Both the position numbers and the translations under genes were made by a program. Below are positions 45,422 to 56,195 of a stretch of DNA of 64,000 bases, in pieces (within the stretch, counting starts at the first letter, position 1; each line of letters opens with the position of its first letter). The stretch lies in NCBI GenBank assembly GCA_021732605.1, contig JAKFUS010000006.1, forward strand, positions 1-64,000, written 5' to 3'. The DNA is from Betaproteobacteria bacterium (GTDB taxonomy: Bacteria > Pseudomonadota > Gammaproteobacteria > Burkholderiales > SG8-41). The notes under the pieces are model-generated. The model was given only the letters and a program-made list of their open reading frames with translations, made no database searches and was not told where the DNA came from.

Positions 45422-45727
45422 TCAGCCTTCGCTCGCGTGCATCCGCACACGCGGCTCGACCTTGAGCCAGGTCGTGCGTTTCGCCACACGCAAATCATAG
45501 TCGGCTTGCAGGCCCAGCCAGGTTTCCGCTGAAACCCTGAAATACTTGCCCAGCCGCAGTGCGGTGTCGGCGGTGATTGAACGTTTGCCGTTGACGATAT
45601 CGCTGATGCGATTGGGCGGCACGGCGATCTCCCGCGCCAGCGCATTGATGCTCACGCCCAGCGGTTTCATGAATTCCTCGTACAAAATCTCTCCCGGCGG
45701 AATCGGGGCTAGCAGTTTGGCTGCCAT
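45422..45727 (-). CDS. higA: HigA-type antitoxin (XRE family)
   Basis: 101 residues. Helix-turn-helix domain PLGVSINALAREIAVPPNRISDIVNGKRSITADTALRLGKYF (about residues 22-65) preceded by the family start PIPPGEILYEEFMKP and followed by SAETWLGLQADYDLR. Neutralises the HigB-like toxin encoded just upstream and probably represses the operon. It follows the toxin gene by eight bases, i.e. the reversed toxin-first order typical of higBA. Confidence 0.92.
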   Translation of the reverse strand: MAAKLLAPIPPGEILYEEFMKPLGVSINALAREIAVPPNRISDIVNGKRSITADTALRLGKYFRVSAETWLGLQADYDLRVAKRTTWLKVEPRVRMHASEG

Positions 45728-45735
45728 GGCGTCTC

Positions 45736-46017
45736 CTAGGCGTGGTAATCAACAATTTCGACTTCGTAAGCATGTCCATCCGACCAGCGGAAACAGATCC
45801 GCCACTGGTCGTTGATGCGAATGCTGTGCTGCCCCTTGCGGTCACCCTTGAGCGCCTCCAGCCGGTTGCCGGGCGGGACCATCAGATCCCCAAGCACGCG
45901 CGCCTGGGCGAGGTATAAAAGCTTGCGGCGGGCCTGCCGTTCAATGGCCCTGAAGCGGACCACCTGCCGGTCGTTGAACAGCGCTTCCGTTTCGACCGAG
46001 CGAAAGGATTTGATCAC
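45736..46017 (-). CDS. higB: HigB-type toxin (RelE superfamily)
   Basis: 93 residues. Start MIKSFRSVETEALFN and end DQWRICFRWSDGHAYEVEIVDYH are characteristic of HigB/RelE-like mRNA interferases; core residues RLEALKGDRKGQHSIRINDQWRI carry the conserved Arg/Lys. It cuts mRNA on the ribosome when not bound to HigA. First gene of the pair. An inverted-repeat operator overlaps its promoter. Confidence 0.92.
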   Translation of the reverse strand: MIKSFRSVETEALFNDRQVVRFRAIERQARRKLLYLAQARVLGDLMVPPGNRLEALKGDRKGQHSIRINDQWRICFRWSDGHAYEVEIVDYHA

Positions 46018-46235: not shown

Positions 46236-47495
46236 ATGGATGTCCAAACCTACATGCTAGCCATCGGCAAAGCCGCCCGCGCCGCATCGCGCGCGATGGC
46301 GGTCGCCGACAGCCATGCCAAAAACACCGCGCTGATCGCGATGGCCACGGCCATCGAACACGCGGCGAAGGTGCTGCTGCACGAAAACGCCCGTGATGTT
46401 GAGGCGGCCAAAGCAAAAAATCTCGACGCTGCCGCCATTGACCGGCTGACGCTGAACCCGAAACGCATCGCCGCGATGGCTGACGGCCTGCGCCAGATTG
46501 CCGCGCTGCCGGATCCGGTTGGCGAGATCACCGGGCTCAAATACCGTCCGACCGGTATTCAGGTCGGACAAATGCGCGTACCGCTGGGTGTGGTCGGCAT
46601 CATTTATGAATCGCGGCCGAACGTGACCGCGGATGCCGCCGGGCTGTGCCTCAAATCCGGCAACGCCGCCATCCTGCGCGGCGGTTCGGAAGCGCTGCAT
46701 TCGAATCAGGCCATCGCCGCCTGTGTGCATGAAGGCCTCAAAGCGGCCAGACTCCCGGAAACCGCGGTGCAGGTGATTGAAACCACCGACCGCGCTGCCG
46801 TCGGCGAGCTGATCACCATGCACGAATACGTCGACATCATCGTGCCGCGCGGCGGCAAGGGCCTGATCGAGCGGCTGATGCAGGAATCGCGCATCCCGAT
46901 GATCAAACACCTGCACGGCGTGTGCCATGTCTACATCGACGATCAAGCCGATTTCGACAAGGCGCTGCGCATCGCAGACAACGCGAAAACCCAGCGCCTC
47001 GGCACCTGCAACACCATGGAAACGCTGCTGGTGGCGCGCGGCATCGCCGACAGAATCCTGCCGCCGCTGTGCAAAATTTACGCCGATAAAAAAATCGAGC
47101 TGCGTGCCGACGACGCTGCACGCAAGATCGTGCCGGGCATGAAAGCGGCAACCGAAGAAGACTGGTACACCGAATATCTCGACGCGATATTGTCCATCCG
47201 CATCGTCGATGGACTCGATGCTGCCATCGACCACATCACGCGTTACGGTTCGCAGCACACCGATGCCATCGTCACCGAAAACATCACACGTGCACGGCGT
47301 TTCCTGCGTGAAGTCGATTCGAGTTCGGTGATGGTCAATGCCTCGACACGTTTTGCCGACGGTTATGAATACGGCCTCGGCGCCGAGATCGGCATTTCCA
47401 CCGACAAACTGCACGCGCGCGGTCCGGTGGGACTGGAAGGCCTGACCTCGCTGAAATACGTGGTGTTCGGTGATGGGCATGTACGCGGCCAATAA
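46236..47495 (+). CDS. proA: Glutamate-5-semialdehyde dehydrogenase (gamma-glutamyl phosphate reductase)
   Basis: 419 residues of the aldehyde-dehydrogenase superfamily, second step of proline synthesis. Motifs: [39 protein letters not shown] (cofactor region, about residue 110), catalytic Cys in [15 protein letters not shown] (about residue 260) and the C-terminal [31 protein letters not shown]. Normally next to holA; here higBA intervenes. The Wadjet-like operon starts 67 bases downstream on the same strand. Confidence 0.96.
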
Positions 47496-47562: not shown

Positions 47563-48849
47563 ATGGAAAATCTCGCTCCAGACAACCCCGACGATCTGCC
47601 GCTCGATCAATACCTCGCGAACGGCGTACGCGAAAGCGATGTGCACGCATTGATGTCGCTACGTGGCGCGGGCGCGATGCTGAACGCGTTCATCATGGTG
47701 TTTCGCGGCAGTGAAACCGATGTACTGATACGCCTGCTGGTGATGCGCGAAATCGGCAATCGGCCCGATGCGCCGCGCTGGAGTCCGCAGGAACTCACAC
47801 AGCATTTTTCCTATCTTGACAGCACCAAACTCAATACCGTTCTTTCGCGTCTGAAGGATTTCGGTTTGTTGCTGTGGGATCAGGAAGACCGCACCTATCA
47901 GTTAAGCGGCGCGGCGCGCGTGACACTATCAGCGCTCGCCAATGTGCTGGAACTGCCGGCTGGTGACGATGCCGATCTCGCCTACATCACCTCACAGGTT
48001 GCCGCAGGCCAGGCGATAGGCCGGCCCTCTCTGGAAGCACTCAATCTGCTGCTCACCAAATATCGCGAATTGCAAAAAGAGTTTGAGGACGCAGTGGAAA
48101 GCGGCTCTGAATTTCGCATACGTCAGGCCGGCGCCAAATTCAATGCAGTGGAAGCTACCGTCGAAAAAGGCACCGAGATCATCCACTCGCTGCTCGTAGG
48201 CGGTAAGCTCGAAGATGCCATGTACCGAAACGCGCAGGCTATCGGCCAAGCGCAAAGCCGCCTGTTACGCATGCAGGCCACATTTCAACGCAACCTGCAT
48301 CAGCTCGAATTGCAAAACGTGGCCCTTGCCAGCAGTGGACTATCTTCGTCCGACGTGCTGCAATGGCTGCGCACACTCGACCGGATTCGCCTTGCGGCTG
48401 TGGGCGAAGACTCCTGCGGCGGCATGCTGCCACTGCCTTTTGCCATGAGCGATCTGATGGTCGATGTGGCCGAATATGAGTTACTCGAACGCGAGCGCGT
48501 CGCGCAGGAAAATACCGTGTTGCCACCGCCCTGCGATACGCCCGATACCGCGGAGGTGTCCAACGAGCGCTTCGCGGCACTTGACCGCTATGTCGATCAA
48601 CTCTCGCAAATACAAACAGCCCTGCCACTGTCCGATGCCGTAATCAATGGCGGTTACGCGCTATCGGCATATCGGCTGTCGCTGCTGTCGTTAATCGGCG
48701 ATGTGGAGTCGGCTGAAATGCGTGGACGTATCGCAGACCTGGCACGCCTGCCGCTACGCGTAACGCTTTCCGGTGAATACGAAAGCGTGGCCCGGGACGG
48801 CATAGCCGAAGTAAGCCGGGGTACCATCACACCGCAGGTCGCGCAATGA
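47563..48849 (+). CDS. jetA: JetA/MksF-like kleisin subunit of a condensin-type defence complex
   Basis: 428 residues, not recognised by a strong motif but fitting the first gene of a four-gene SMC operon. The N-terminal 130 residues look like a winged-helix domain (SPQELTQHFSYLDSTKLNTVLSRLKDFGLLLWDQEDRTYQLSGAARVTL). The middle is helical and coiled (KYRELQKEFEDAVESGSEFRIRQAGAKFNAVEATVEKGTE, QAQSRLLRMQATFQRNLHQLELQN). The C-terminal part is a second small domain. This matches the MukF/kleisin layout that bridges the two SMC heads. Its TGA overlaps the next ATG. It is somewhat shorter than the best-known JetA proteins, and the family assignment is from context. Confidence 0.72.
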   Translation: MENLAPDNPDDLPLDQYLANGVRESDVHALMSLRGAGAMLNAFIMVFRGSETDVLIRLLVMREIGNRPDAPRWSPQELTQHFSYLDSTKLNTVLSRLKDFGLLLWDQEDRTYQLSGAARVTLSALANVLELPAGDDADLAYITSQVAAGQAIGRPSLEALNLLLTKYRELQKEFEDAVESGSEFRIRQAGAKFNAVEATVEKGTEIIHSLLVGGKLEDAMYRNAQAIGQAQSRLLRMQATFQRNLHQLELQNVALASSGLSSSDVLQWLRTLDRIRLAAVGEDSCGGMLPLPFAMSDLMVDVAEYELLERERVAQENTVLPPPCDTPDTAEVSNERFAALDRYVDQLSQIQTALPLSDAVINGGYALSAYRLSLLSLIGDVESAEMRGRIADLARLPLRVTLSGEYESVARDGIAEVSRGTITPQVAQ

Positions 48850-49487
48850 GCGACGACGCGCAAGCACTGATCGCACGCCTCATCGCCGAACGTTGGCTGC
48901 CCCGCGCGGAACCGTTGGCGCGCCGCGTACTGGTGGATGAAGACTTCCGTGAAGACGTCACCCGCCGTCTCGCAGCCTGCGGCTTGCGACTGTTGGACAA
49001 CCCGTATGCCACGCACATTGCGCTGGGAATGGCGCATGAAGCCGAAGAACCGGTGCTCGCACGCAACGGGCAATGGTTATCAAATAATCTTGCACTGCCC
49101 CGGGATTGCATAGCGCTACTGGTGGTGCTGTGGGCACTGCTGATTTTACCCAAGCGCGAGCGGCAGATTTCTCGCCGCGACAACACTGAGACGCAGCAAA
49201 ACGACATGTTCGGTCTTGAAAAACCCATTCCTACCGGCAACGAAGTCGAAGGCAGCCTGCGCGAGGCGACCCTGATCGCGGATTTCGGTAAACAACTCGG
49301 TGGCAAAACGCGCATCAGCCTCAACCTGGGGCTGCTCTCCCGCCACGGTTTTATTGAACGGTATCAGAGCGTGATTCGTGAAGGACCGCTTCTTGATCTG
49401 GCGCTCGATCACGGCACGCTCGCGCCGCGCATACTTGACGGTGCGCTGGCTGAATTGCTTGCTACGCGCGCGGCCAGAGCGGAGTAA
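48846..49487 (+). CDS. jetB: JetB/MksE-like subunit
   Basis: 213 residues. Winged-helix rich, with IALLVVLWALLILPKRERQI in the middle (hydrophobic helix, probably core rather than membrane), then a loop of polar residues and a second half GSLREATLIADFGKQLGGKTRISLNLGLLSRHGFIERYQSV that reads like a winged-helix DNA- or partner-binding domain. Size, place between the kleisin-like and SMC-like genes and four-base overlap with jetA match MukE/MksE/JetB. Those proteins bind the kleisin and modulate the SMC ATPase. The DUF4194-like identity was not tested. Confidence 0.72.
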   Translation: MSDDAQALIARLIAERWLPRAEPLARRVLVDEDFREDVTRRLAACGLRLLDNPYATHIALGMAHEAEEPVLARNGQWLSNNLALPRDCIALLVVLWALLILPKRERQISRRDNTETQQNDMFGLEKPIPTGNEVEGSLREATLIADFGKQLGGKTRISLNLGLLSRHGFIERYQSVIREGPLLDLALDHGTLAPRILDGALAELLATRAARAE

Positions 49488-49492
49488 CGCGC

Positions 49493-52291
49493 GTGTTTCA
49501 TCTTAAAAGCATCGAGCTCGTGCATTGGGATTACTGGCAGCGCTTTCGCCAGACGCTGGATGCCAGCATTGTCGCCATCGTCGGTCCCAACGGTTCAGGC
49601 AAAACGACGCTGCTCGATGCACTGCGCACTTTGTTCGCGCTGCAATGCGCTGGCAAGCGCGATTACAAACGCTACGTTCGTCATTCCGGCGAATCTTTTG
49701 CATGGCTGCGCGCAGTGGTCGATAACCGGCGCATCGGCAATGCACGGCACCCGTTTTTTCCACTGCTGGAGGATGAGGTAACGCTGGTCTGCCGCATCCG
49801 CAAGCAGGGTGGCGACTGGCAGCGGCAGTATCTGATAGCGCCGGGAGATGCGCCGATTGATCAAACAATGGAGCGCTCAACCGAATGGCTCGGCGTGCAG
49901 GATTACAAACGGCGGCTGGCCAGCGGCGGCTTAAGCGCGGCGATTGCGGAGGTGCTCTCGCTGGAGCAGGGGGAGACCGACCGCCTGTGCGAATACTCAC
50001 CCAAAGCGCTGCTCGATCTAGTGTTCCATGTGTTCGGCGACAAACGCGTACTCGACGACTACACCCAGGCACGCGCTGATCAACGCAGCGGCGAGGCCGA
50101 GCTCGACAAACTCGATGGCGATCTCAAGCGCACGCAAAACGAGCATGAATCCTTCATCCAGCGCGCCAATAGATATCAGGAATGGCGAAGCCTTAAAAGC
50201 GAAGAAAATCAATTGCTTGCGGAGATTCGTCCGCGTATGGAGCTGGCGGAACTGCGCCTTGCGATCAATAGCGCCGAAGCACGGCTGGACACTTTGCGCC
50301 GCCAGTCGGCGCAGCACCGTATTCATATCGAACAAGAGGAACGGCGCCTCACGCGCGGCGCGGAAGCACTCGCCGCCAACAGCGTTGCCCAGCAGCGTGC
50401 CGCCGCGGCGCGCGACGAAGCGGTCGCGCGTCACAGCGCCGCGCTAGTGAGCGTCACCGGAACGCGCAACCTGCTGGGGGAGCGCGACAAGCTGCGCGCG
50501 CAAGCCGCCGCGACAACGGATAGCGCACGCGCCGCGGCACGTCTGGAACAGAATCGCCCGCGTCTGGCCGTGGTTCAGGCAAGCAAGGCGCAATGCGCGC
50601 AGCGGCGCGCCGAAATCAACGCGCGACTCGCTGCACTGCGCAGCGGCAAGGCCATGGTTGAACCGTTCGTGGAAAAATTGCGTGGCGCTCTTGACGAAGC
50701 CGGCATACCCCACATGATGCTCGCCGAAATCATCGAAGTTGCCGATGCACGTTGGCAAGCGGCAGTGGAAGCGCTGCTCGCGCCATACCGCCATCTTGTT
50801 TTGTTGAAGCGCGTTCGTGACAGCGATGCGGCGTGGCGCATCGGTGAGCGATTGCAGTATCGCAGTTTTGTCACACCCGATCTGGAGCCGCCGCCGGCGC
50901 CTGTCGAGGGCAGCGTGCTGGAAATCGCTCGCTTCATGGGCGAGGCACCGGCATGGCTCACCGGCTGGTTAAATCGTATACAACGTGTCGAAGATGCGGC
51001 CGCCGGCGCGAAACTTGATCCACGGCAGGACTGGATCACCCGCGCGGGCTACCATCGGGAGCGGCGCGGCGCACGACATCGCAGTGTCGCCGCACATGAT
51101 TATCGCTTCGGTGAAGCCGCGCGCCGCGCACAGTTGAAAGCGCTGGAAGAAGAACTGCCGCAAGTCACTGCTGAGATCGACAAACTTGCGACAGAGGAGA
51201 AAATTCTCATTTCCGATATCAGTCGAGATCAGGCCGTGGTATCTGGTGTGGATGCGGCCAATCTTCTGGCAAGCCGCGCCGAGGAGTTCGCTGCCGCAGA
51301 GGTGCGGCTCGCCGCGGAAGAAGCAGCAGAGCAGGAAGCCGGCGCAGCCCGTAATTCCGCTTCCGAAACCGAGGGCCAATTGCTGGCGGAATATGGCAAG
51401 CTCGGTGCGGAACGGCAGCAAGTCGAAGTCGCGCTGCGCGAGGCGCGCACCGCGCTGACGATTACGCAACAAGATATTCATGCGCAGGCCGACGATCAGC
51501 AAAAGCGCGGCGAACGAGAGGTGCAACTGCGCAACGGCATGCCCGCGACCTGGCAGGACGAGCAAGCGCTGGAAAAGCTGCTCTCCGATTATTCCTCGGC
51601 ACAAACTGTAAATCTCCGAATTTCTGATGTTCAGCGCCGCCTTGAACAAGGCCAATGGGAAACCGACGAGACCGTGATCGCGCGCCGCGACAAACTCGCC
51701 GAGGATGTGCGCGGCAAGAGTGAGCGCGTGGATACTGCGCGCAATCAGTGCGAACGCGCCAAGAAAATCACGGAAGCAGCCCGTGGCGAGTATCTCAACG
51801 TGCTGCGCGCCACGGTACGCAATTACGGACAGCATCTAAAGGAACTGGGGTCAAAGGCCGGCATCGAGGTGGCCTACGAGTTGCCGCATCTGGTGAACGA
51901 TGATACGACGCTGGCGCAAGCGGGGCTGAACGTGAAATTCGACTTCGATCAGAAAGGCATGATCGGCATGAACGACGGCGAGGCCTCCGGCGGGCAGCAA
52001 GTGATGAAGTCACTGATATTGCTGATCGCGCTCACAATGGAAACCGACCGTCCCGGCGGGTTCGTTTTCATCGACGAGCCTTTCGCGCATCTGGATGTGA
52101 TGAACATCGATCGCGTGGCCGCTTTTTTACGAGCGACGCAGGCGCAATATCTGATTACCACGCCAAGCACGCATAACATCAACGTCTTCAGCCCGGTGCA
52201 ACTGACACTGGTAACGCAGAAGAAACGTCCGGGCGAACGCTGGGCCCCGCCAGTGGCGATGTTGCGTAAAGATGAAACCACCGCCGCCTAA
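49493..52291 (+). CDS. jetC: JetC/MksB-like SMC ATPase
   Basis: 932 residues. Head part 1 has Walker A GPNGSGKTT (residues 31-39) after LKSIELVHWDYWQRF. Two long coiled-coil arms (about 200-385 and 530-790) flank a hinge (about 386-530, including IPHMMLAEIIEVADARWQAAVEALLAPYRHLVLL). Head part 2 has the ABC signature ASGGQQVMKSL (about 829) and Walker B GGFVFIDEPFAHLD (about 857-870). It is an SMC-type motor that would extrude DNA loops. The arms are short compared with classical SMC and MukB, as in MksB. GTG start at 49493; overlaps jetD by 20 bases. No zinc hook of the Rad50 type is seen. Confidence 0.9.
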   Translation: MFHLKSIELVHWDYWQRFRQTLDASIVAIVGPNGSGKTTLLDALRTLFALQCAGKRDYKRYVRHSGESFAWLRAVVDNRRIGNARHPFFPLLEDEVTLVCRIRKQGGDWQRQYLIAPGDAPIDQTMERSTEWLGVQDYKRRLASGGLSAAIAEVLSLEQGETDRLCEYSPKALLDLVFHVFGDKRVLDDYTQARADQRSGEAELDKLDGDLKRTQNEHESFIQRANRYQEWRSLKSEENQLLAEIRPRMELAELRLAINSAEARLDTLRRQSAQHRIHIEQEERRLTRGAEALAANSVAQQRAAAARDEAVARHSAALVSVTGTRNLLGERDKLRAQAAATTDSARAAARLEQNRPRLAVVQASKAQCAQRRAEINARLAALRSGKAMVEPFVEKLRGALDEAGIPHMMLAEIIEVADARWQAAVEALLAPYRHLVLLKRVRDSDAAWRIGERLQYRSFVTPDLEPPPAPVEGSVLEIARFMGEAPAWLTGWLNRIQRVEDAAAGAKLDPRQDWITRAGYHRERRGARHRSVAAHDYRFGEAARRAQLKALEEELPQVTAEIDKLATEEKILISDISRDQAVVSGVDAANLLASRAEEFAAAEVRLAAEEAAEQEAGAARNSASETEGQLLAEYGKLGAERQQVEVALREARTALTITQQDIHAQADDQQKRGEREVQLRNGMPATWQDEQALEKLLSDYSSAQTVNLRISDVQRRLEQGQWETDETVIARRDKLAEDVRGKSERVDTARNQCERAKKITEAARGEYLNVLRATVRNYGQHLKELGSKAGIEVAYELPHLVNDDTTLAQAGLNVKFDFDQKGMIGMNDGEASGGQQVMKSLILLIALTMETDRPGGFVFIDEPFAHLDVMNIDRVAAFLRATQAQYLITTPSTHNINVFSPVQLTLVTQKKRPGERWAPPVAMLRKDETTAA

Positions 52292-53492
52292 TGACTGGTC
52301 GGCGCCCGGCGCCGATGGCGTATGCGTGCGACTGCTGGATGTCGGTGCAAAATCCACGCTGCGCGGACGGCGCTTGCGACGTGCAATGATCGCTGACGCG
52401 CGCGCGGTTACTACTTGGCCCGCCACATGGCGCGATCTGCTGATTCAATGGCTTGATGGCGCATCTAAGCGCCGTTGGGACACGCTCATCAGCCGCGCCG
52501 GTAACGCCGGATTCTCATATGCGCACGCGCTGCTCGAAGCGCTGTTGCGTGCAGGGTTGGTCGAAACAGATGAGTCGCGCGAACATGGCCAGTGGAAAAC
52601 ACGGCAGGTTGCGTTTATTGACCCGGTTGCCTTGCGCGCAACGCTCGGCTTACCCGACGCCGACGCCCTCCGCGCGCAGCTAGCTGACGAAATCACCGCA
52701 CCACCACAGGATAGTCGCCTCGCGCCGTTGTGGACAGAACTTGCGAATTATCCACCCGCACGCGGCCTTGAGCGTTGCGCTCTGCTGCGCAAACTGGAGG
52801 CATGGATCGTGGGAAACCGCTTCGGCACACGCCGCGATTTCGCCTTGTTTGCTCGCGGTACGACCAAGGCAGTCACCAGCGCAGAGTGGAAATGGCTGGA
52901 GACGCTACCCGATTTCGCCGCTTTCGGCATCGAGCAGCACACACCGGCGCTGTGGTTACGCGCACCGCTGACGCTGCGCTTCGGCGAAAAAACAATCGAT
53001 TTGTCAGCGCCTCCCGACATGATCGGCATTTCTCCCGCGACAATCAGTACTCTCGACGGTGTTGGTGGCGAGATCGGCTGCTGGCGCATAGTCGAAAATC
53101 GCACCAGCTTCGAACGTACGGCACGAGAACATGGCGACACCGATGGCGTAATCTGGCTGCCCGGTTTTGCCCCGGGCTGGTGGAAAGAATCCGTGCAACA
53201 CATTCTGCGCCACAAACCCACGCACGCTCTGGTTGCCTGCGACCCCGATCCGGCCGGCATTTGTATTGCGCTGGACGCCGGGGCCATATGGCAATCAAGC
53301 GGACTTACTTGGCTGCCGTGGGTGATGGATGTGCGTCAACTGACGCAGCTTGATACGCGCTTGCCCTTGACCGACCATGATAAAGTTCTTCTCGAACAAT
53401 TGTCCGCGCGCGACCTCCCGCCCGCGCTCCGGGCGCTTGCAGAGTGGATGCATGCGCACAATGAAAAGGGTGAGCAGGAAGGTTATCTGTAA
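52272..53492 (+). CDS. jetD: JetD/MksG-like Toprim nuclease subunit
   Basis: 406 residues. C-terminal Toprim-type domain: conserved Glu in RIVENRTSFER (about residue 273), Gly in IWLPGFAPGWW, and the DxDxxG motif in LVACDPDPAGICIALDAG (about 320). This combination is the DUF2220 / topoisomerase VI A-like nuclease seen in JetD and MksG. The N-terminal 200 residues form a winged-helix/arm region (DUF3322-like by position). The protein would cut DNA that the SMC complex recognises as small circular or plasmid. ATG at 52272 lies inside the jetC end. A small ACACTC/GAGTGT hairpin follows the stop. Confidence 0.85.
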   Translation: MKPPPPNDWSAPGADGVCVRLLDVGAKSTLRGRRLRRAMIADARAVTTWPATWRDLLIQWLDGASKRRWDTLISRAGNAGFSYAHALLEALLRAGLVETDESREHGQWKTRQVAFIDPVALRATLGLPDADALRAQLADEITAPPQDSRLAPLWTELANYPPARGLERCALLRKLEAWIVGNRFGTRRDFALFARGTTKAVTSAEWKWLETLPDFAAFGIEQHTPALWLRAPLTLRFGEKTIDLSAPPDMIGISPATISTLDGVGGEIGCWRIVENRTSFERTAREHGDTDGVIWLPGFAPGWWKESVQHILRHKPTHALVACDPDPAGICIALDAGAIWQSSGLTWLPWVMDVRQLTQLDTRLPLTDHDKVLLEQLSARDLPPALRALAEWMHAHNEKGEQEGYL

Positions 53493-53599: not shown

Positions 53600-55399
53600 A
53601 TGAGCAAACTCGTCGAAGTCAAGGTTCCGGATATCGGGGACTACAAAAACATTCCGGTGATCGAAGTGCTGGTCAAGCCCGGTGACACGGTAAAGGCGGA
53701 AGATCCGCTGGTCACGCTGGAATCCGACAAAGCGACGATGGACATTCCCGCGCCGTCCAGCGGCGTGGTCAAGGCGCTGAGCCTGAAACCCGGCGACAAG
53801 GTTTCCAAAGGCACGCTGATCCTGACGCTGGAAGAAGGCGCTGCCGCAGCACCGGCAGCGAAACCGGCTGCGGCTGCAGCTCCTGCCCCTGCTCCGGCCG
53901 CCCCTCAATCCTCAATCCCCAAACCTCAATCCTCGCCAGCGCCCGCAGCAACAGCCGCTGCACCCAAAGATATCTCCGGCATCAAAGCCGACTTCCATGC
54001 TGAAGTTGTCGTGCTCGGCGCCGGCCCCGGCGGTTACACCGCGGCCTTCCGCGCTGCCGACCTCGGCAAAAAAGTTGTGCTGATCGAACGTTATCCGACG
54101 CTGGGTGGCGTGTGCCTCAATGTCGGCTGCATTCCGTCAAAAGCGCTGCTGCACATGGCCAAGGTCATCACCGAAGCCGATGAAGCCGCGCATGCCGGCA
54201 TTACCTTCGGCAAACCGGTCATCGACATCGACAAGCTCCGTGCATGGAAAGACGGTGTGCTGGGCAAGCTGACCAAAGGCCTCGCCGGCATGGCCAAGCA
54301 ACGCAAGGTACAGGTCGTCACCGGCCGCGGGGAATTTGCCTCGGCGAACACCATCCGTGTTGAAACCGCGGACGGCGTCAAAACCGTCGCGTTTGAAAAC
54401 TGCATCATCGCCGCCGGTTCATCGGTCGCACGCATCCCCGGCTTCCCCTACGACAATCCGCGCATCATCGATTCCACCGGCGCGCTGAAACTCGCCGAAG
54501 TGCCGAAGCGCCTGCTGGTCATCGGCGGCGGCATCATCGGGCTCGAAATGGCCACCGTTTATGACGCACTGGGCAGCAAGATCACCGTCGTCGAACTGAT
54601 GGATGCGCTGATTCCGGGGGCGGACAAGGACATCGTGCGCGTGTTGTCGAAACGCATCGAGAAGCGTTACGAAAAAATCCTGCTCAAAACCAAGGTTGCC
54701 AAGATCGAAGCACAGAAAGCCGGATTGAAAGTGACTTTCGAAGGCACTGACGGAACCACTACCACCGACACCTTCGACGCCGCGCTGATGGCTGTCGGCC
54801 GCCGCCCCAACGGCCGTGAACTCAAGGCCGAAGCCGCAGGCGTCACGGTGAACGAGCGCGGCTACATCCCCGCCGACAAACAGCAGCGCACCAACGTCCC
54901 GCACATCTACGCCATCGGCGACATCTGCGGCGAACCGATGCTCGCGCACAAGGCCACGCACGAAGCCAAGATCGCCGCCGAAGTCATCGCCGGCCACAAG
55001 GCTTTTTTCGATGCGCGCACCATTCCTTCCGTCGCCTACACCGATCCCGAAATCGCATGGATGGGCCTGACCGAAACCCAGGCCCAGGCGCAGGGCATCG
55101 ACTACGAAAAAGCCGCCTTCCCCTGGGCCGCCAGCGGCCGCGCACTGGCCACCGGTCGTGAAGACGGCATGACCAAGCTGCTGCTCGACAAACAATCGCG
55201 CCGCGTGCTCGGTGCCGCGATCGTCGGCGTCAATGCCGGCGAACTGATTGCAGAAGCGGTGCTGGCGCTGGAAATGGGCGCCGACGCTATGGATCTCTGC
55301 CTGACCATCCATCCGCACCCGACGTTGTCGGAGACGCTGTTTTTTGCGGCAGAAATCGCGGAAGGGTCGATTACCGATCTTTACATGCCGAAAAAGTAA
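53600..55399 (+). CDS. lpdA: Dihydrolipoyl dehydrogenase with N-terminal lipoyl domain
   Basis: 599 residues, the E3 enzyme of 2-oxoacid dehydrogenase complexes, in the betaproteobacterial form with its own lipoyl domain. The lipoyl domain (residues 1-80) has the lipoylated Lys in ESDKATMDIPAPSSG. An Ala/Pro linker (80-130) contains SSIPKPQSSPAP, which is encoded by a CTCAATCC-type repeat. The flavoprotein has GAGPGGYTAAFRAADLG (FAD), the redox disulphide CLNVGC, GGGIIGLEMA (NAD) and the C-terminal His-Glu pair in TIHPHPTLSE. No aceE or aceF gene is adjacent here, which is unusual for this form. Confidence 0.95.
   Translation: MSKLVEVKVPDIGDYKNIPVIEVLVKPGDTVKAEDPLVTLESDKATMDIPAPSSGVVKALSLKPGDKVSKGTLILTLEEGAAAAPAAKPAAAAAPAPAPAAPQSSIPKPQSSPAPAATAAAPKDISGIKADFHAEVVVLGAGPGGYTAAFRAADLGKKVVLIERYPTLGGVCLNVGCIPSKALLHMAKVITEADEAAHAGITFGKPVIDIDKLRAWKDGVLGKLTKGLAGMAKQRKVQVVTGRGEFASANTIRVETADGVKTVAFENCIIAAGSSVARIPGFPYDNPRIIDSTGALKLAEVPKRLLVIGGGIIGLEMATVYDALGSKITVVELMDALIPGADKDIVRVLSKRIEKRYEKILLKTKVAKIEAQKAGLKVTFEGTDGTTTTDTFDAALMAVGRRPNGRELKAEAAGVTVNERGYIPADKQQRTNVPHIYAIGDICGEPMLAHKATHEAKIAAEVIAGHKAFFDARTIPSVAYTDPEIAWMGLTETQAQAQGIDYEKAAFPWAASGRALATGREDGMTKLLLDKQSRRVLGAAIVGVNAGELIAEAVLALEMGADAMDLCLTIHPHPTLSETLFFAAEIAEGSITDLYMPKK
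53902..53937 (+). repeat. CTCAATCC-type low-complexity repeat inside the lpdA linker
   Basis: Three imperfect copies of CCTCAATCC (CCTCAATCCTCAATCC, then CCTCAATCCTCG) are translated as part of the Ala/Pro-rich linker. The same string in both orientations forms the hairpin at 61896-61955 between korA and korB. Confidence 0.6.
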
Positions 55400-55442
55400 A
55401 TATCGGTACGGCGACAATATTGATCCGCCTTACATAAAGTAC

Positions 55443-56195
55443 ATGAAAATTGCTAACGGCATCGTAAAGCAAATTGGTCAACTTGGACTATTTCTGACGA
55501 TGTGGGTAAGTATGAGTAGCGCCGGGGCTGGGTTGTTTGGATTTGGCGGCGTGAGCTGGAAAGAAGAGGCACTACTGCACGATGGCAGCAAGATCATCGT
55601 GGAGCGGCGGCAGAGTTACGGCGGGCGACACGAAATCGGACAATCCCCGCCGATCAAAGAACAGGAAATCACGTTCAGTGTGCCGGGAACAAGCCAGCGC
55701 ATCACGTGGAAAGCCGAATTCAGTGAAGACATCGGACGCTCCAACTTTCTACTTCTCGCGCTGCATATTCTGAACAGCACACCTTACATCGTGGCTGTGC
55801 CGCATTTATGCCTTTCCTACAATAAATGGGGGAGACCCAATCCACCGTACGTGTTCTTCAGATACGAAGGCAAAGAGTGGAAACGTATTCCTCTGCAAGA
55901 TTTACCGATCGAGTTCAAGGACATCAATCTGGTGATCAGCACCAAAACGGAAGAAAAAACGATTACCGCGCAGTCTCTCGTGTCAGCTGAACTCGTCAAA
56001 AAACTGAACAGCAGTCTCAGACAACTCCAATACCGCGCCATCCTGAGGGAGCCAGTAAAAAAAGGGGCAGACGCATCATCCGTTAATTGTGAAGAGCTAG
56101 TGTCCGACGGGAAAGGTGGCTGGCGTTCGCCTGGAGGGTTCAAAGCACCTTATCCGATCACATCACCTAAAGAACACATGAGCACGCAAAAATGA
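55443..56195 (+). CDS. Secreted protein of unknown function
   Basis: 250 residues. The hydrophobic N-terminus (IGQLGLFLTMWVSMSSAGAGLFGF) suggests export. The mature part starts WKEEALLHDGSKIIVERRQSYGGRHEIGQSPPIKEQEITF, a pattern I associate with uncharacterised betaproteobacterial proteins. Three cysteines. The gene is visibly A+T-richer than its neighbours, which suggests later acquisition. The start at 55443 is chosen over the longer frame because it gives a signal peptide and does not overlap lpdA. The ribosome-binding site is weak. It sits between lpdA and hicBA, in an accessory-looking stretch. Confidence 0.65.
   Translation: MKIANGIVKQIGQLGLFLTMWVSMSSAGAGLFGFGGVSWKEEALLHDGSKIIVERRQSYGGRHEIGQSPPIKEQEITFSVPGTSQRITWKAEFSEDIGRSNFLLLALHILNSTPYIVAVPHLCLSYNKWGRPNPPYVFFRYEGKEWKRIPLQDLPIEFKDINLVISTKTEEKTITAQSLVSAELVKKLNSSLRQLQYRAILREPVKKGADASSVNCEELVSDGKGGWRSPGGFKAPYPITSPKEHMSTQK

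Follow-up and report, generated by a model that had tools for sequence, protein, structure and literature searches.

We identified a four-gene operon in a 64,000-nucleotide stretch of Betaproteobacteria bacterium, order Burkholderiales (assembly GCA_021732605.1, contig JAKFUS010000006.1; hereafter, the window), and this operon is probably a divergent system of the Wadjet/Mks group (JetABCD/MksFEBG) armed with a nuclease that would cut small circular DNA, its relatives without the nuclease gene most likely being chromosomal condensins. The genes are referred to as A, B, C, and D (Table 1), and loci with and without D as armed (D-plus) and unarmed (D-minus), respectively. The assignment rests on the gene order, the intact motifs of the ATPase C, the JetD/MksG-type nuclease D with its acidic residues, and the sporadic presence of the operon. 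The window is part of G000:C15 in an assembly of 3.48 Mb in 75 contigs; its own family and genus are coded f1 and g1.

Table 1. Genes of the operon and its two flanks in the window
Feature	Coordinates	Strand	Annotation
A	47563..48849	+	Probable kleisin (JetA/MksF/MukF-like), 428 aa
B	48846..49487	+	Probable KITE subunit (JetB/MksE-like), 213 aa; weak match to DUF4194
C	49493..52291	+	Short-armed SMC ATPase (JetC/MksB-like), 932 aa, GTG start; SMC_N, JetC1
D	52272..53492	+	Toprim nuclease (JetD/MksG-like), 406 aa
proA	46236..47495	+	Upstream flank, outside the system; above the NCBIfam cut-off
lpdA	53600..55399	+	Downstream flank, outside the system; NCBIfam dihydrolipoyl dehydrogenase, above cut-off

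Four-gene operon and its proteins

According to the open reading frame (ORF) coordinates, A and B overlap by 4 bases, B and C are separated by 5 bases, and C and D overlap by 20 bases. An earlier reading of the window from its sequence only had proposed four overlapping or tightly spaced plus-strand ORFs between proA and lpdA; their coordinates, overlaps, and lengths were reproduced, and both flanks, named by NCBIfam, directly adjoin the operon. The co-directional order A-B-C-D is that required for the Wadjet group. A further 15 family loci have it on one strand, with order and spacing kept, and thus the arrangement is not a matter of chance. Among these loci, the D of L045 is cut by the contig end, and in L047 C begins before B only if its longest possible frame is taken. 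A promoter-like site was looked for between proA and A, and none was found.

The C protein carries Walker A (GPNGSGKTT), signature (ASGGQQ), and Walker B (FIDEPF) motifs, which were invariant in 26 aligned rows, and its GTG start is backed by the invariance of M1 and F2 in the same rows. Its hinge region aligned with the Smc hinge structure 4rsj (residues 340-592, E 9.7e-5). All the elements on which the sequence-only reading had based an SMC-like (structural maintenance of chromosomes) ATPase were thus present. Matches were obtained to Pfam SMC_N (E 8.6e-17) and to the PADLOC JetC1 models (E 1.1e-20), the best match of the C family profile in the Protein Data Bank (PDB) was JetC (8dk2_C), and comparison with six JetCs of the order gave an hhalign value of 99.4%. 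The arms are shorter than those of classical JetC, as had been suggested: 801 residues lie between Walker A and the signature vs. 946-1054 in eight other JetCs (of the 12 JetCs of the order examined, both motif patterns were found in these eight). The median profile-matched length of C in the family was 936 aa (63 sequences, 881-944). At the other end of the size range, two four-gene, JetD-carrying loci of the order (L198 and L199) encode SMCs of 1647 and 1667 aa; the first two proteins of L198 matched no PADLOC family, and its D matched JetD1 at 1.4e-17.

The fourth gene had been read as encoding a Toprim protein, and this was borne out. D bears ENRTSFE and CDPDPAG with the Toprim acidic residues kept, and its model contains a Toprim domain of the Topo VI-A/MksG type that matched both folds, Topo VI-A best. 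The PADLOC JetD1 models matched 11 of 11 aligned D relatives, one family member exceeded the Pfam JetD_C cut-off, and the D proteins from three of the order's Wadjet loci gave an hhalign value of 97.5%; a search of PDB chains with the D profile found no SMC-complex protein. The 15 family D proteins formed one group (Shimodaira-Hasegawa-like approximate likelihood ratio test, SH-aLRT, 99) and were separated from a further 16 JetD-like proteins found in the order; the truncated D of L045 was left out of the trees and residue counts. In one copy (L046:7253-8482, minus strand), H replaces the second Asp of the DxD motif, and thus this copy may be inactive.

A and B lie beyond the current models. 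No PADLOC family matched A, no JetA model was among the matches of 28 A relatives, and hhalign found no link between A and the JetA set, in agreement with the earlier remark that this protein could not be tied firmly to the JetA family. The leading structural match of its low-confidence model was the kleisin MukF, and A is probably a kleisin (JetA/MksF/MukF-like). B is a probable KITE subunit (kleisin-interacting tandem winged-helix element, JetB/MksE-like): DUF4194 matched it at E 0.005, below the family cut-off, and matched 5 of 19 B relatives at E up to 0.01 (best 5.1e-4). No PADLOC family, JetB1 included, matched B, hhalign against the JetB set reached at most 6.9%, and the A and B profiles found no SMC-complex protein among the PDB sequences. 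Unlike A and B, the corresponding proteins of the type I controls L194 and L186 scored strongly with the PADLOC type I models.

Armed and unarmed loci and their genomic sites

With A as the query, A was present in 60 of 399 genomes of the order and in 8 of 61 relatives. The 61 A-positive genomes of the order comprised 13 with D and 48 without; absences hold at the sensitivity of the searches, which scored at most 30 candidates per genome for D and, in the searches of the class, at most four (A profile) or three (C profile). In families f5 (42 of 43 genomes, 11 of 11 genera) and f22 (9 of 10 genomes, three of four genera), the unarmed complex shows the behavior of core genes, and D was not found in any of the 12 f5 and nine f22 genomes searched. 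The armed one shows that of an accessory system in f1, the family of the window (5 of 37 genomes, all five with D). In the class, the A profile matched 6 of 369 genomes, namely the window's own, G790 with a full-length match, G454 with a match in four pieces, and three marginal ones. Besides the window's genome, the C profile matched 3 of 274 genomes (E 4.3e-15 to 1.3e-13), in the middle of C only and in frames of 1163-1227 aa. In some D-minus loci (L049, L053, L054, L056, L057, L080, L161, and L162), additional spacers of about 470-810 bases separate A from B or B from C, as judged from the ORF coordinates. L197, from the PF09983 list, was left out.

The operon sites are chromosomal places beside housekeeping genes and not defense islands. 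In the window's clade, proA lies directly upstream of the operon in all six loci and lpdA downstream in the five with a continuing contig, in L044 only after about 900 bases. A survey of the proA-lpdA gap in related genomes, which the sequence-only reading had proposed, revealed a closed junction, with lpdA directly after proA, in 16 of 16 readable same-genus genomes without the operon; G010 (contig ending in proA), G011 (proA split), and G015 (no proA match) were left out of this count. ObgE was within the fetched stretch in 32 of the 41 D-minus loci examined in place, and the gene 3' of C often encodes an RlmL-like methyltransferase (15 loci) or is proB. In genus g85 of family f28, ObgE is about 4 kb from A in both D-plus G224 and D-minus G151; the distance is about 6 kb for G283 and 12 kb for G395, and the two lie on different contigs in G313. 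In four further loci, L051 and L063 with D and L068 and L069 without D, one and the same gene cluster (prfB by NCBIfam for L068) is directly upstream.

Two neighbors of the operon were noted in the window. A HigB-like toxin (PF05015, E 4e-15) with a helix-turn-helix antitoxin (45422-46017, minus strand) lies between holA and proA, and the pair occurs at the same place in L044, L107, and L121 and not in the other same-genus loci reaching that place. A 283-aa ORF 3' of lpdA (55344-56195, plus strand) had no Pfam match above noise and no match in the 22 neighboring-locus stretches examined.

A search of 72,556 plasmid records returned no match for A, three for D, one for B, and two for C (at E 1e-30), and A had no match in 50,697 phage records. 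As type I JetA is likewise rare on plasmids (10 and 8 records), the rarity of the family there says little. On two Variovorax plasmids (L225 and L227), D looks whole, C is represented by its second half only, and an IS1071 transposase adjoins; the B match is elsewhere on one of them. On a Diaphorobacter plasmid (L226), only residues 175-376 of D matched.

Function and the gain or loss of D

By analogy with Wadjet, the operon probably destroys plasmids. Reviews describe loop extrusion to completion followed by JetD cleavage (PMC10586767, PMC10512200), and nuclease activity is reported for the MksG of Corynebacterium glutamicum (PMC10123090). On this model, A (kleisin) and B (KITE) would link C dimers, and the resulting motor would load onto DNA and extrude it as loops. 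If the DNA is a small circle, extrusion would run to completion, and two motor units would meet and free the D dimer from self-inhibition; the activated D would then cut the circle, with linear and very large DNA escaping. In D-minus genomes, the same A-B-C motor would act on the chromosome only. The D-less complex, which approaches fixation in some of the order's families, is most likely a chromosomal (MksBEF-like) condensin, so that D can be regarded as an optional arming module on the motor. For Pseudomonas aeruginosa MksBEF, a chromosome-only role has been proposed (PMC10586767, PMC7083940, PMC7485682).

Two other explanations of the window's operon were weighed. It is highly improbable that C is SbcC, RecN, or an ordinary SMC-type repair or chromosome ATPase with unrelated neighbors. 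C does match TIGR02168 (chromosomal SMC) in part and has many general SMC/ABC matches, but its scores of 62.5 and 92.6 bits are far below the cut-off of 567.35, and another gene in the window's genome, the canonical SMC, reaches 1077.7 bits. The preference of the family profile for JetC likewise argues against an ordinary SMC, as does the joint occurrence of A, B, and C in 62 of the 63 A-positive loci fetched. The exception, L050 (G227), has A and B, with no C found in its 11.5 kb contig, and represents a broken locus or an assembly gap. The complex could also be mainly a chromosomal condensin (MksBEF-like) in which D serves chromosome work as an accessory subunit with a Toprim fold and is not a plasmid killer. 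The predominance of D-less genomes, their near fixation in f5 and f22, the best fit of the D model to Topo VI-A, and the housekeeping neighborhood would suit this explanation. It is nevertheless unlikely, given that operons with D occur sporadically in the family of the window and are absent without trace at the closed proA-lpdA junctions, that a canonical SMC is encoded elsewhere in the genome, and that the D family matches JetD models. A divergent Wadjet of the MksB type, as first proposed for the window, is supported by the JetC and JetD matches and the gene order; the proposed search against Wadjet models matched C and the D family and failed for A and B with JetA1 and JetB1.

How the armed and unarmed forms are related is less certain. 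We consider it close to an even chance that one short-armed SMC complex switches between an armed, plasmid-cutting form and an unarmed, near-fixed condensin through repeated loss (or regain) of D, with A-B-C staying. In a quick IQ-TREE tree of C (63 rows, 16 D-plus and 47 D-minus, L050 without C being left out), the D state needs at least six changes, four of them forced by starred branches, vs. 14.5 on average with shuffled D labels. The C genes of L019 (with D) and L078 (without D) are 90% identical in DNA; beyond C, the former has a 1713-base stretch holding D and the latter 269 bases before a common flank. In L064 (with D) and L082 (without D), the stretch 3' of C measures 1417 and 2064 bases, respectively. 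A rival account, in which D is not ancestral and an unarmed condensin family acquired it on more than one occasion, is a real though somewhat doubtful possibility. The scattering of D-plus rows on the C tree would agree with it, as would the g85 D proteins, which are the most divergent (33% to the window's) although their C proteins sit inside a D-minus clade, and the lack of any D remnant in the 48 D-minus loci, in a search that recovered 15 of 15 other D-plus loci. Set against repeated gain, the family D proteins form the single clade described above, D always lies directly 3' of C, and the C-tree grouping that joins g85 to f1 and L047 is not rejected by the D data (approximately unbiased test, p 0.133), the deep order of the D tree being weakly supported (4 of 12 inner branches starred). 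Change counts cannot distinguish gain from loss. The single D group fits a single origin with subsequent losses, and the divergent g85 D proteins leave room for re-acquisition.

Evolutionary rates relative to ObgE were also compared and were not used as evidence. For C, the median was 2.18 in D-plus pairs (seven pairs) vs. 1.50 in D-minus pairs (50 pairs) with wide overlap, and for A the difference ran in the opposite direction (0.98 vs. 1.83). The same-genus pair of the window and L044 is fast (C 79% and ObgE 97% identical), and one D-minus pair is faster (ratio 10.4). Under a loose rule, and confounded by phylogeny, no column in A, two in B, and five in C separated D-plus from D-minus proteins, and no docking motif was seen.

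Comparison with known systems

Wadjet-group members without JetD/MksG have already been described (PMC7617805, PMC10586767), and the operon list of PMC7617805 (Data S1) may hold this family. Wadjet is reported to be widespread in Ralstonia solanacearum by Pfam/COG annotation (PMC7251935). A literature search (MksBEF, MksB condensin, or Wadjet with Burkholderia, Ralstonia, or Burkholderiales), in which most subscription journals were not covered, found no paper describing the family.

If the proposed switching is true, a defense system would have given rise to a housekeeping condensin, the unarmed form, and chromosome folding may persist as a role of the armed form. Armed and unarmed forms stand side by side in related genomes within one alignable family, so that a step from defense to housekeeping, or the reverse, can be tested via one gene. 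The short SMC lends itself to testing whether the length of the arms plays a role in sensing circular DNA. The PADLOC protein models recognize C and D only, so that defense surveys may count too few of these systems.

Among the known systems, Wadjet type I (DUF5716-branch JetA; same-genus example G007:C28, L194) has the same gene order, and its C and D are homologous to those of the family by PADLOC models and hhalign (99.2% and 97.5% vs. L193-L195). It differs in that the JetA1 and JetB1 models do not match the family's A or B, its JetC is longer (1139-1151 vs. about 930 aa), and the family D constitutes its own clade. For MksBEFG of C. glutamicum, the D profile had no sequence match at E < 0.1 to any PDB chain, MksG (8b7f) being the relevant one. 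The D-minus majority of the family has the same three-gene, nuclease-free make-up as the MksBEF/MukBEF condensins, and the model of A resembles MukF; the window's copy differs from them in carrying D with acidic residues. What is new here is a family whose A and B escape the current PADLOC models, whose D forms a JetD clade of its own, whose SMC is short, and in which armed and unarmed members are mixed.
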